Shown here: positions 19,332 through 48,790 of the stretch, piece after piece
How the letters are laid out: each line of letters starts with the position of its first letter
How positions within the stretch are numbered: the first letter of the stretch is position 1
NCBI RefSeq assembly: GCF_002954355.1
Contig: NZ_MQVV01000014.1
Location: forward strand, 372,001 to 436,000
DNA: 64,000 bases
Direction of reading: 5' to 3'
Origin: Nonlabens tegetincola
GTDB taxonomy: Bacteria > Bacteroidota > Bacteroidia > Flavobacteriales > Flavobacteriaceae
The notes under the pieces: model-generated
What the model was told of the DNA's origin: nothing
Seen by the model: the letters and a program-made list of their open reading frames with translations, nothing else
The model's database searches: none
Translations under genes and position numbers: made by a program

Positions 19332-19371
19332 TTTTATAGACTTATTATATTTAATTAAAACAACATACACG

Positions 19372-19398
19372 AACCTCGTCAGAGGTTGATTTAACGAG
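19372..19398 (-). promoter_or_regulatory. Candidate L19 leader with alternative pairings
   Basis: In the rplS 5' UTR, AACCTC / GAGGTT (19372-19377 with 19382-19387) can form a 6-bp hairpin. On the mRNA strand CTCGT near 19394-19398 can instead pair with ACGAG at about 19375-19379, so the two are exclusive. This suggests an autoregulatory ribosomal-protein leader. Confidence 0.4.
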
Positions 19399-45154: not shown

Positions 45155-45718
45155 ATGAACGAAATTATAAAAACGAGACGCAGTATTTTCCCTGCGCAAT
45201 ATATTGAAGGTACTATAGAGAAACAGGATCTCCTTTCTATTATAGATGCAGCAAGATGGGCTCCTAACCATCGTAAAACTGAACCATGGAGATATAAGGT
45301 TCTTACCGGTAAAGCGCTAGATAGGCTAGGTACGTACCTTGGAGATGCCTATGAAGAAACCCCAGGCCACAAGAAAATCAAGCTTAAAAAGTTAAGAGAA
45401 AATCCTAGTAAAGCTGCAGCGGTTATTTTAATTTTTATGCACAGGGATGAAAAAGAATCAGTTCCAGAATGGGAAGAAGTAGCAGCAACTTCCATGAGTG
45501 TACAAAATATGTGGTTAATGACTCATGAATTGGGTTATGGTGCCTACTGGAGTAGTCCTAAATCCTTTGTTGACATGAAGAATTTTGAAGGTATAACAAC
45601 ACATGAGAACGAACGATTTTTAGGTTTTTTCTACATTGGAAATTATGATAAAAAGGGGTTTGATTATAATGCAACAAGAAAAACTATAGAAGAAATAGCC
45701 ACTTTTATTGATATGTAA
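45155..45718 (+). CDS. Nitroreductase-family flavoprotein
   Basis: A 187-residue FMN-dependent oxidoreductase. Family marks are IIKTRRSIFPAQYIEG at the N-terminus, AARWAPNHRKTEPWRYKVL (FMN and substrate contact), and GYGAYWSSPKSF, giving a YdjA-like compact enzyme. It reduces nitro or quinone compounds; native substrate unknown. ATG 45155 is used because an upstream in-frame ATG at 45107 lies inside the icd terminator. Confidence 0.88.
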   Translation: MNEIIKTRRSIFPAQYIEGTIEKQDLLSIIDAARWAPNHRKTEPWRYKVLTGKALDRLGTYLGDAYEETPGHKKIKLKKLRENPSKAAAVILIFMHRDEKESVPEWEEVAATSMSVQNMWLMTHELGYGAYWSSPKSFVDMKNFEGITTHENERFLGFFYIGNYDKKGFDYNATRKTIEEIATFIDM

Positions 45719-45762
45719 ATTTATTGAAATTCAAGTATTTAGTTCATTGTTTAAATTATTTA

Positions 45763-45818
45763 AACTAACAATTTAGTTTTATAACTATAAAAATAGTTTG
45801 AAAACTAAAAAAATAGTT
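45763..45818 (+). promoter_or_regulatory. Triple BlaI-type operator
   Basis: Three AACTA-N6-TAGTT dyads at 45763-45778, 45783-45798 and 45803-45818, exactly 20 bases (two helical turns) apart. The ACTA-N6-TAGT core has the same half-site spacing as staphylococcal bla/mec operators. The second overlaps the -33 box and the third fills the promoter spacer. Confidence 0.85.
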
Positions 45819-45827
45819 ATACGTTTG
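45797..45827 (+). promoter_or_regulatory. Promoter of the BlaI/M56 operon
   Basis: TTTG (45797-45800), 19 bases, then TACGTTTG (45820-45827): a full -33/-7 consensus pair. Transcription should start near 45834, giving a leader of about 85 bases. Confidence 0.8.
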
Positions 45828-45847
45828 TAATGCGTTAAGGATAGAGT

Positions 45848-45903
45848 GGTGTTACCATGTAACAACGATAGCCTGACCTCGAGTGATCACTCGAGGTAAC
45901 GCC
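45848..45903 (+). promoter_or_regulatory. Structured leader with 22-bp perfect palindrome
   Basis: Positions 45876-45897 are a perfect 22-base palindrome centred on TGATCA. In addition GTTAC (45851-45855) pairs with GTAAC (45859-45863), and GGTGTTACC (45848-45856) can pair with GGTAACGCC (45895-45903) with one G-U, which excludes the other two. Confidence 0.6.
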
Positions 45904-45918
45904 CTTAAAACATCATAA

Positions 45919-46278
45919 ATGGAAAAACTAACAGCTAAAGAAGAAGAAATTATGCAGGTTTTATGGAAGCTAGAGAAGGCTTTTGTAAAAGAAGTGGTAC
46001 CACACCTGTTTGGAACCAATCATTATAATACCGTATCTACCATTGTGCGTAAACTAGAGGATAAGGGATTTGTATCTCACGAGGCCTTTGGTAAAACACA
46101 CAGGTATTTTCCAATAGTTCAAAAGGAAGACTATCGCAATAAATACGTGACTACAGCGATTACCGATTATTTCAATAATTCATATAAGAATGTGGTTTCT
46201 TTCTTTGCCGATGAGAAGAAAATATCGGCCAAGGAATTAAGAGAAATATTAAATATGATTGAATCTAAAGACAAATAG
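45919..46278 (+). CDS. BlaI/MecI/CopY-family transcriptional repressor
   Basis: A 119-residue winged-helix repressor: LTAKEEEIMQVLWKLEKAF, NHYNTVSTIVRKLEDKGFV (recognition helix) and the dimerising C-terminal helices to AKELREILNM. In the classic system it represses its own operon until an M56 antirepressor cleaves it. That logic is supported here by three matching operators upstream and an M56 peptidase gene one base downstream. Confidence 0.93.
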   Translation: MEKLTAKEEEIMQVLWKLEKAFVKEVVPHLFGTNHYNTVSTIVRKLEDKGFVSHEAFGKTHRYFPIVQKEDYRNKYVTTAITDYFNNSYKNVVSFFADEKKISAKELREILNMIESKDK

Positions 46279-46279
46279 C

Positions 46280-48739
46280 ATGGAAACACTTGTAGAATAC
46301 CTTTGGAAAAGTACAGCAGTTCTAGCTGTATTCGTTTTGGGATATCACTTCATATTAAGAAAGTTAACTTTTTTTCAGGCCAATAGAGTTTTTTTACTTG
46401 TTGGAATAGTTGCTAGCATCGTTCTACCTTTTGTTGAGTTTACAGAGGTTGTATACATGGAACAATTACCTGTCACCACTACAAATAATGTGATCTATTT
46501 TTCTGATGCAGCAATGATGAATACGGTTACTCCAGAAGTTACTACTTATAACTGGATGGAACTTTTTATTTATGCTTATCTAGCTGTCGTATTATTCTTT
46601 TTGGGTAAATTAAGTATAGAAATTATGAGCGTTCAACGACTCTTAAACGCTGGTACGAGTAGAAAGGAAGATGGAGTAGTGTTAGTATCGCTTTCGCGAA
46701 AGCTTACTGCATTCAGCTTTTTTAATAAAATAGGATTTCATAATGGTGACGAGAAGTCTGAACAGTTTGCACATATTCTAAGACACGAAAAAGTACACGC
46801 CAAGGAATGGCATAGTATAGATGTGATTATAACACATATATATTGCGCTTTATTTTGGATCAATCCATTATCGTGGTTTTTGAAAAAACAGGTGGCTCAA
46901 AATTTAGAGTTCATTGCCGATGCCAAAGCGGCTGCTGTACAAGAAGGTAATATGAGCTATGCTAGAACATTAGTTAATGCAGTAGTATTACAACAACAAC
47001 CAGCGCTTGCAAATAATTTTGTAACCCCTTTTATTAAACAACGTATCATAATGTTACAAAAAGAAGCTTCAAAGAAATGGAGTGCCTATAAATATGCTCT
47101 TATATTACCGGTAATCATTCTTTTCCTTTACAGTTTCAATACGGTTACTAAAGTTGAGTATTTAAATAGTCCAGTTGAAAAAATGATTCCTACTGAAAAG
47201 GCATCAAAAAATTATGAACCTTCAATTGCACCAGGTAACTCTAATTTACAAACAGCACAGCCTGTTATAGAAGCAATAGATACAGTATTCAGGTTAAAGG
47301 AACGTGTTAATTTAAGGATTGTGAGTTCCAGTACTCGAGAATCTCTTGAAAAACAAGCTGAAAATCTTAAAAAGAAGTACAATGTAGATCTTAAAATCAA
47401 AAAGTTCAAAAAGAAGAATGGGAAAATTATAAAACTGGCAATTTCTATTGATAACAACAAGGGTTCTGTCATTGAACAGCAATATGAAAGCACCAATGGA
47501 CTAGACGATATCTGTATAGACGGCGTTTTTGATGACACAACAAGTGATTGGTCAATAGGTAAATGTGATGCACAAGTTTCACAAAGAATAATACAATCTG
47601 GTCCTGGAAATAAGTTTTACGCGTTCAGTACTGATAGTGTAATGAAGCCTTATATCTTCAATGGAACTTTTAAAGATTCTCTGTTATTGAACGCTTTGTC
47701 TATTGTAAAAACGGTGAATCTTGATTCAATTTTTGCTCAGATTGAAATGGGAGAAAATTCGATAAAATTAGATTCTTTAATGGCAAAAATGAATATCCAA
47801 TTTAAAGATTTAGACAGTCTAGTAAATATGGGAAACAGCTTTCATCATGCACAACCCATAATTATTGAAGAGCTCGATATTGATATGGATACATTAAGAG
47901 TTGATGCATCCCAACCTATGACGTATGGTAGTTCATACAGATGGAATAGTGATGCTAAACCACTTTTTATTTTAAACGGCAAAGAGGTGGAAGAAGCTAA
48001 AGTATTACGATTACATCCTAATGCAATACAGTCTGTTACAGTTCTTAAAGATGGTAATGCAACAAGTAGATATGGAGATAAAGGTGCAAATGGAGTAATT
48101 GTTGTGGTTAGTAAACCAGAAGATCTCGGAACTCTTGTAGAAGAGGAAATTATAATTGATAATGATTCTACTAGATATAAAGTAAGACGTAAGGCTATAG
48201 AAAAGCGTGAGGAGTATATGCGTGAAAGAGAGCAATTAATGGAGGAAAAGCGAGCTCAATACGAGGAGCGACGAGAATTATTACGTGAAAAATCCGAAGC
48301 TAAACGAGAAGAACTGGAAAAACGCAGAGAAATTATGCGTGAAAAAGCTGTGGAGAAAAGAAAACAAGTGGAATTGTTGAGAGAAGCGAAAAGATCAGAA
48401 CTAGAGGCAAGAAGACAAATCTTATTAGCCAAGAGAGATTCATTAAAGGCTGGATCACATTATTATGAAATTGAAGAAGTGATTGATGAGAATGTTGAAA
48501 ATATTTATCAAGTCAATGATCCTGAGAATAAAGATTCCCTTATCAAATTAGGAGAGATACTATCTGAAAAAGGTCATGTTTTAAATATTAAAACACATAG
48601 AGTAAGAGATGGTATTTTACGTAAATTAAAATTTGAAATTGACGGTAATCAATACACATCACAATCAGATGCTGGAATTAAACAAGTTGTATTTAAAGAG
48701 GTAAACGGTCAACTTAGAGTAAGCATCATTCAAAATTGA
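46280..48739 (+). CDS. BlaR1-like M56 antirepressor peptidase with plug-like domain and coiled coil
   Basis: An 819-residue membrane protein. Residues 1-300 are an M56 domain: about four helices, with the cytoplasmic zinc site ILRHEKVHAKEWHSID (HExxH near 169) and LEFIADAKAAAVQEG, which supplies the third ligand. The last helix is at about 273-288. No penicillin-binding sensor follows. The extracytoplasmic part instead contains a TonB-plug-like segment (about 555-610: PLFILNGKEVEEAKVL, SVTVLKDGNATSRYGDKGAN, GVIVVVS) and then a roughly 75-residue Glu/Arg/Lys coiled coil (about 635-710). The palindrome at 46689 encodes LSRK before the zinc site. Its signal is unknown. Confidence 0.88.
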   Translation: METLVEYLWKSTAVLAVFVLGYHFILRKLTFFQANRVFLLVGIVASIVLPFVEFTEVVYMEQLPVTTTNNVIYFSDAAMMNTVTPEVTTYNWMELFIYAYLAVVLFFLGKLSIEIMSVQRLLNAGTSRKEDGVVLVSLSRKLTAFSFFNKIGFHNGDEKSEQFAHILRHEKVHAKEWHSIDVIITHIYCALFWINPLSWFLKKQVAQNLEFIADAKAAAVQEGNMSYARTLVNAVVLQQQPALANNFVTPFIKQRIIMLQKEASKKWSAYKYALILPVIILFLYSFNTVTKVEYLNSPVEKMIPTEKASKNYEPSIAPGNSNLQTAQPVIEAIDTVFRLKERVNLRIVSSSTRESLEKQAENLKKKYNVDLKIKKFKKKNGKIIKLAISIDNNKGSVIEQQYESTNGLDDICIDGVFDDTTSDWSIGKCDAQVSQRIIQSGPGNKFYAFSTDSVMKPYIFNGTFKDSLLLNALSIVKTVNLDSIFAQIEMGENSIKLDSLMAKMNIQFKDLDSLVNMGNSFHHAQPIIIEELDIDMDTLRVDASQPMTYGSSYRWNSDAKPLFILNGKEVEEAKVLRLHPNAIQSVTVLKDGNATSRYGDKGANGVIVVVSKPEDLGTLVEEEIIIDNDSTRYKVRRKAIEKREEYMREREQLMEEKRAQYEERRELLREKSEAKREELEKRREIMREKAVEKRKQVELLREAKRSELEARRQILLAKRDSLKAGSHYYEIEEVIDENVENIYQVNDPENKDSLIKLGEILSEKGHVLNIKTHRVRDGILRKLKFEIDGNQYTSQSDAGIKQVVFKEVNGQLRVSIIQN
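46689..46703. repeat. Palindromic repeat, copy 10
   Basis: Fifteen of 16 bases, perfect core, in the M56 peptidase gene; encodes LSRK. Confidence 0.95.
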
Positions 48740-48756: not shown

Positions 48757-48790
48757 AAAAAAAGCCTGCAACAAGAAGCAGGCTTTTTTT
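48757..48790. terminator. Terminator after the M56 gene
   Basis: Arms AAAAAAAGCCTGC / GCAGGCTTTTTTT around an 8-base loop, between convergent genes. Confidence 0.9.

Follow-up and report, generated by a model that had tools for sequence, protein, structure and literature searches.

This locus raises the question of what three copies of one inverted repeat are doing on the promoter of a blaI-M56 gene pair, and how much of a regulatory circuit can be read from them. Judging by its recurrence in relatives across the bacterial family, the triple array is very probably the way in which the pair switches itself off.

The dyad array and the genes behind it

Within the window, which is the whole 64,000 nt stretch analysed (G000:C14:372001–436000, from a genome of 3.03 Mb in 21 contigs), the motif AACTA-N6-TAGTT starts at 45763, 45783 and 45803, in steps of exactly 20 bp. 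The distal dyad O1 (AACTAACAATTTAGTT, 45763–45778), the middle dyad O2 (AACTATAAAAATAGTT, 45783–45798) and the proximal dyad O3 (AACTAAAAAAATAGTT, 45803–45818) are all free of mismatches, as an earlier sequence-only reading of this DNA had described. The 3′ end of O2 contributes to the forward-strand TTTG at 45797–45800, which we take to be the −33 box of a promoter whose −7 box is TACGTTTG (45820–45827, forward strand), of the TAnnTTTG type. The 19 bases between the two boxes (45801–45819) form the promoter spacer, which O3 occupies; both the overlap of the second dyad with the −33 box and the position of the third inside the spacer had been claimed previously, and both hold to the base.

Four exact dyads are present in the window, against 0.19 expected in shuffles, and none of 100 shuffles reached four. 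The 56-base triple pattern, with up to three mismatches allowed, matched once in the window and never in 100 shuffles. Single dyads with two mismatches were at background in the window (76, with 74.1 expected), and exact single dyads were rarer in the whole genome (9 sites) than matches to a backwards control pattern (25 sites). The phased array alone is informative, and a lone dyad carries no signal at the genome scale.

The genes that follow are those the earlier reading named. A forward-strand blaI-type gene (45919–46278) encodes a repressor of 119 residues, which Penicillinase_R (PF03965) spans from residue 4 to 115 (E 9.2e-30; 103.8 bits, cut-off 22.6). MecI (1sd6) matches with E 1.6e-8, and the repressor's PDB relatives at E 0.001, four distinct sequences, are all MecI or BlaI. 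The next gene (46280–48739, forward strand) encodes an M56 membrane metallopeptidase of 819 residues (PF05569, E 1.3e-9; 38.1 bits, cut-off 31), with HEKVH at residues 169–173 and four hydrophobic segments by hydropathy (8–26, 37–55, 95–113 and 268–286). Residues 556–618 form a SusC/RagA plug-like stretch (TIGR04056, 47.6 bits, below the cut-off of 368.25; the Pfam Plug match, E 0.001, is also below cut-off), after which the protein continues with a long charged stretch. A probable intrinsic terminator, AAAGCCTGC-loop-GCAGGCTTTTTTT, was read from the sequence at 48761–48790 (forward strand).

Pfam found no penicillin-binding domain in the M56 protein, and NCBIfam blaR1_generic scored 26.8 bits against a cut-off of 400. 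No gene for a beta-lactamase or resistant PBP adjoins the operon among the neighbours scanned, namely a nitroreductase and an isocitrate dehydrogenase upstream and an ACP synthase III downstream.

Conservation and reach of the array

A similar repressor was detected in 120 of the 149 family genomes searched and in all 23 same-genus genomes, with G013 carrying a paralogue only. The 110 best-matching orthologues (30 family loci, 20 further same-genus loci and 60 additional regions) were compared; this set omits weaker clades, G075 and second copies, and hence represents the closest part of the family. Among the loci with enough sequence, a frame encoding HExxH follows blaI in 48 of 48, and its first Met lies 2–14 nt past the blaI match in 47 of these. 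Arrays were scored as two or more dyads with at most two mismatches each, at exact 20-bp steps, within 300 nt of the start codon. They precede 100 of the 110 orthologous blaI genes, 84 with three or more dyads and 16 with two. At the other ten, the best run within 300 nt was a single site (eight loci) or none (two loci), but the wider DNA of nine of them carries the array in front of an extra gene before blaI (eight loci) or of a duplicated blaI-M56 pair (L192). The tenth, L137, has one dyad only in its unextended upstream DNA.

Counting these nine, tandem arrays stand at 109 of the 110 orthologous operons, so the absence of dyads that would have spoken against the earlier reading is not what was found. 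Because the nine carry the array ahead of the extra gene or the duplicated pair, its position follows the promoter of the operon, not the start codon of blaI; and since 16 orthologues have two dyads and L137 has one, the third site is not essential everywhere. Across the relatives examined, sequence comparison supports the assignment of the array to the blaI-M56 operon. Of the eight extra genes, two code for members of the beta-lactamase family (PF00144, E 1.8e-55 and 1.2e-56), and the other six gave no Pfam match at E 0.01. The two PF00144 proteins have TPR ends and lie between array and blaI in two genera (L190:832–2253 and L193:1563–2990).

The spacing is nearly invariant. Among dyad pairs with at most one mismatch and 14–60 bp apart, 171 are separated by 20 bp, 72 by 40 bp, four by 23 bp and three by 17 bp, with one pair at each further distance listed; in 20 letter shuffles no pair fell at 20 bp. 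All 84 triple arrays have the same C in ACTA and the same G in TAGT at each of their three sites, while the six inner bases vary. AAC is fixed in all 84 middle sites and all 84 proximal sites, and the A-G-T-T of the middle sites is kept in 83, 84, 84 and 84 of 84, respectively. Conservation is weakest at the distal site, with T to G in ACTA in 12 of 84 and A to C in TAGT in 24 of 84. The middle dyad of the triple arrays reaches into the −33 region, and the proximal one reaches into the −7 box. The recognition helix of the repressors, HYNT[VLI]ST, is found in 109 of the 110 orthologues.

A search of the same-genus genomes with AACTA-N6-TAGTT, the route suggested earlier for defining the regulon, led back to this operon. 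In 22 of the 23 genomes, tandem dyads at up to one mismatch stand at a single place, the blaI-M56 operon; the remaining genome, G013, is 77% complete and lacks a match of the orthologous repressor clade. Tandem matches with two mismatches elsewhere in these genomes are no commoner than for the backwards control. On this evidence, the regulon defined by tandem arrays at up to one mismatch is the operon itself. A regulon of single dyads was rejected, given the deficit of exact sites relative to the control noted above and given that, of the six exact single dyads that this genome has beyond the array, five fall within reading frames or at their ends. As neither two-mismatch nor single-dyad counts exceed their controls, these counts speak neither for nor against weaker or single-site targets. 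At L002:1502, one exact AACTAACCGATTAGTT separates a gene of TetR-like appearance, as judged by eye, from the gene after it, and is perhaps the operator of that regulator itself.

Nine paralogue loci, from two further BlaI groups, have other spacings or other dyads than the 20-bp array. Seven (L065, L066 and L068–L072; helix AYNTVSTI) carry ACTA-N6-TAGT dyads, three to a locus and each with at most one mismatch, at 17–18 and 23–24 bp, the third lying downstream of the −7 box. At the other two (L014 and L067; helix TTTVATLL), the sites are of the TACA-N2-TGTA form and lie 27 bp apart, and L014 is the only other BlaI found in this genome, which has two PF03965 matches. One paralogue group thus appears to share the half-site but not the spacing, and the other neither, in a small sample of nine loci.

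These comparisons bear on two other explanations of the dyads. They might be operators of a different regulator, such as a TetR-type protein or a paralogous BlaI encoded elsewhere, as the exact AACTAACCGATTAGTT adjoining the TetR-like gene and the ACTA-N6-TAGT sites of paralogue group A in other species would allow. This is improbable, as the array tracks the blaI-M56 promoter in the relatives examined, even across an intervening gene, and the sole other BlaI found in the genome, L014, has its TACA-N2-TGTA sites 27 bp apart at its own gene, so that a group A repressor is not available here. Less probable still is that the array reflects the AT-rich, low-complexity character of the promoter, as curved DNA or a UP-like element, and has no repressor role. 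Positions 45700–45799 are only 15% G+C, as such a feature would have it, but curvature would not keep the ACTA C and the TAGT G constant at each site in all 84 arrays where the six inner bases differ, and the 20-bp register has hardly any exceptions.

The proposed switch and known BlaI systems

Sequence comparison makes it highly likely that the locus is a negatively autoregulated sensor operon, with BlaI dimers held on the three dyads until they are lifted through the M56 protease. At steps of 20 bp, roughly two turns of the helix, the BlaI-type dimers would sit on almost the same side of the DNA at all three dyads. A dimer on O2 would cover the −33 box, and one on O3 the spacer as far as the −7 box, from which we infer that bound repressor and RNA polymerase are mutually exclusive; O1 probably adds cooperative occupancy. 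The co-transcribed M56 protease may lift repression on an envelope signal, either by cutting BlaI or by making a co-inducer, and derepression would raise the operon itself and, in some relatives, the extra gene between promoter and blaI. Steric autorepression of this kind is the most likely reading, with binding, cooperativity and induction predicted by analogy with the family, in which B. licheniformis BlaI has three operators (OP1–OP3) and the S. aureus model has the repressor cleaved between N101 and F102 (both in PMC3305447).

The cleavage step itself is not to be assumed here, as the residues aligned with the N-F bond of S. aureus are F-F in the 119-residue repressor. The motif listing shows VSFFA to be kept in 47 of 50 orthologues, so cleavage may occur at another bond. 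It had been proposed that the autoregulated circuit could be predicted almost completely from sequence. The operator and its autoregulation are well supported by the comparisons, but 'almost completely' overstates the case, because the M56 protein has no detected penicillin-binding domain that would point to the sensor signal, and F-F stands at the cleavage bond.

Like the bla and mec systems of Staphylococcus and B. licheniformis, the operon combines a homologous PF03965 repressor, a co-transcribed M56 protease, inverted repeats at the promoter and, as predicted here, autoregulation, and B. licheniformis bla shares the number of three operators (PMC3305447). Unlike the bla/mec divergons, it has no divergent beta-lactamase or PBP gene, no penicillin-binding sensor domain was found in it, and F-F replaces N-F at the cleavage bond. 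Their sites lie between two divergent operons, whereas here a single promoter carries all three, one after another at a constant step of 20 bp. The likeness to staphylococcal operators drawn in the sequence-only reading holds in part: the ACTA...TAGT frame may agree with their geometry, but the core published for bla/mec/cop operators, TACA-N2-TGTA (PMC7253601), occurs in none of the three dyads.

The nearest operator precedent, closer than the bla/mec core, is that of the C. thermocellum BlaI proteins, which have GTCTAT/GACTAT half-sites in ordered inverted-repeat pairs before their own operon and tiny regulons of three and one operons (PMC8457756). Two half-site pairs there contrast with three full dyads at 20-bp steps here, and the present locus differs further in its Bacteroidota-type promoter boxes and in a partner with a SusC/RagA plug-like stretch. 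CopR/CopY belong to the same repressor superfamily (TIGR02698, 47.1 bits, below the cut-off of 121.95) and have two operators, with a proposed two-layer repression that blocks the −35 element and the polymerase (PMC7253601). Their consensus is RNYKACANNYGTMRNY, and the 119-residue protein here has no cysteine and therefore no C-x-C motif.

A structured repeat in the predicted leader

A TAnnTTTG box lies directly 3′ of the proximal dyad in 89 of the 100 tandem-array orthologues, and that box or a near form of it in 94 of 100. Promoters of F. psychrophilum are reported to carry TAnnTTTG at −12 to −5 (PMC9723704), and with TACGTTTG placed at −12 to −5, the +1 position is predicted to be G45832 on the forward strand, so the 5′ end formerly expected near 45834 moves to G45832. 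The transcript would then begin on the first base of a structured repeat that makes up most of the predicted 5′ leader, and which the earlier account of 45763–45827 had omitted.

This element (GCGTTAAGGAT...AACGCCC, 45832–45904, forward strand) belongs to a repeat that is scattered through genomes of the family, with copies in L046, L047, L201, L205 and L214 among other loci and the consensus GCGTTARGGAT...GCCYGACC...AACGCC. In the helix P1, GCGTT (45832–45836) pairs with AACGC (45898–45902), and a hairpin CCTCGAG/CTCGAGG lies within 45877–45896. The leader (45830–45925) folds with −26.2 kcal/mol (z-score −3.02). A covariance model, R1, matches 45830–45905 with 47.1 bits and E 1e-10, the copy itself being among the 46 rows from which R1 was built. 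Rfam 15 at its gathering threshold gave no match at 45832–45904. A T-box reading was discarded as chance, its best Rfam score being 17.9 bits against 93, and an integron attC reading was dropped since the AAC/GTT polarity of the outer arms is the reverse of that in attC. The sole Rfam match in the window at gathering threshold is an L19-Flavobacteria ribosomal protein leader at 19361–19388, on the reverse strand.

The structure is supported by covariation. In the alignment of 46 copies (A1), 98.3% of cells are paired, the covariation is 0.244 against 0.102 (sd 0.010) in shuffled and at most 0.085 in slid versions, and 51 cells are changed on both sides against 15.9 in shuffles. Two other measures are no higher than in shuffles: pairs with a both-side change number 4 (271 of 500 shuffles), and further pair types number 11 (174 of 500). 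Since the pattern used to select the copies prescribes part of P2 and most letters of P1, the invariance of P1 is partly due to selection; the covarying columns 9/87 and 14/82 are free or nearly free in that pattern. A matching change in P1 is seen in L242, a copy between promoter and tmRNA gene, where GCGTA/TACGC replaces GCGTT/AACGC. L201, L202 and L205 have common flanks and a common P3 but a differing P2 arm, which suggests exchange of P2 arms between copies.

The repeat is intergenic and found in both orientations. A strict pattern detects it in 13 of 23 same-genus genomes, and R1 in 112 of 149 family genomes, 18 of them with at least 25 matches (25–27, with no more than 27 candidates scored); this genome has four. 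Taking one readable best copy from each of 26 genomes, two follow a promoter box, both at tmRNA. REP/RAYT repeats are similar in their high copy number in some genomes, intergenic position, palindromic parts and both orientations, and dissimilar in that the leader element measures about 70–125 nt in aligned copies and has two arms on a conserved P1. A REP/RAYT origin found no support: R1 detected no copy in 30 Y1-transposase loci (97,146 bases; 30 of the 40 matches listed, several broken or partial), and 5 of 14 searched genomes gave no match to Y1_Tnp. With none found and an estimated one expected by chance in element-rich genomes, what is excluded is systematic Y1 flanking and not a distant link.

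By its 5′ motif, the element is present in 14 of the 110 blaI leaders and lacking in 96. Eight carriers are of the same genus (G000, G004, G008, G009, G018, G019, G020 and G022) and six of other genera. All 14 copies point forward and start 4 nt past the −7 box, or 5 nt in the one case of L122. R1 confirms 11 of the 14 at E < 1e-5, with L052 weak (E 0.026) and L057 and L064 missed, being diverged or interrupted. These 11, nine of which were among the 46 rows of R1, are all of the confident R1 matches in the 110 loci (203,627 bases), and each lies in the blaI leader; a weak match in L058 (E 0.058) falls outside it. On a tree of the first 78 codons, the carrier label needs seven changes, against 13.4 when shuffled, with at least two forced by well supported branches, so that one or a few old insertions followed by losses are possible.

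The second recurrent setting is tmRNA. The pattern 'TAnnTTTG, 3–6 nt, GCGTTARGG' was searched in 397 genomes and gave 106 matches in 88 of them, against 39 for the backwards control, a sizeable background. Of the 30 loci listed for this pattern, five are blaI leaders, two are coding sequence and 22 of the other 23 contain a tmRNA gene; these 22 loci (within L198–L226) come from many genera, and the element often begins 3–6 nt past the −7 box. A less biased figure comes from the best 30 tmRNA loci by score, six of which have the element upstream of tmRNA. It starts 6 nt past the box in the tmRNA leaders L232, L238 and L252 and tens of bases past in L246 and L247. In 20 further tmRNA leaders, drawn mostly from genomes with matches, 18 match R1 and 12 of the starts are 5–6 nt past the box, with the element further downstream in L319, L325, L330 and L334. 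The tmRNA leader of this genome (L317) has no R1 match. The exact start at the predicted +1 thus appears to hold for blaI, and to be frequent, not general, for tmRNA.

Whether this position has a function is finely balanced. We give about even chances to a neutral insertion of a dispersed repeat, consistent with its intergenic spread in both orientations, with the 96 of 110 orthologous leaders that do without it, with three of the 14 carriers (L052, L057 and L064) that are weak or missed by the model as if decaying, and with the copies well away from the −7 box at tmRNA (L319, L325, L330, L334, L246 and L247). Chance placement sits less easily with the uniform orientation and 4 nt (once 5 nt) offset of the 14 blaI copies, with the confinement of all 11 confident matches in 203,627 bases to the blaI leader, and with the label changes, at least two, forced by well supported tree branches. 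It is possible, though less likely than not, that the repeat is a new structured class that enters or is kept at transcription starts, with blaI-M56 and tmRNA (ssrA) promoters as recurrent homes. It could be a non-autonomous mobile element inserting into the melted promoter bubble or, alternatively, a 5′-end RNA module (for stability or processing) copied between leaders with exchange of P2 arms.

In the literature within reach of our search, which covered few subscription papers, no description of the operator array (including GCGTTAGGGAT) or of the leader element was found, and nothing treated BlaI, Bacteroidetes, operator and M56 together; a term search of PMC2267715 gave no matches. As far as this literature could be searched, the dispersed leader element is undescribed, and if anything at this locus proves new, it may be this element. 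If its position at +1 is not accidental, it would be a dispersed element that recurs at two defined promoters, one of them that of tmRNA.

For the large and little studied set of BlaI-M56 sensors, the array provides an operator code at the sequence level. One genus holds three repressor groups with different recognition helices and three types of dyad and spacing (nine paralogue loci), and because group and dyad type go together, specificity and insulation are directly testable. Clues to what the switch may control come from the arrays in front of extra genes, two of which code for proteins of the beta-lactamase family.
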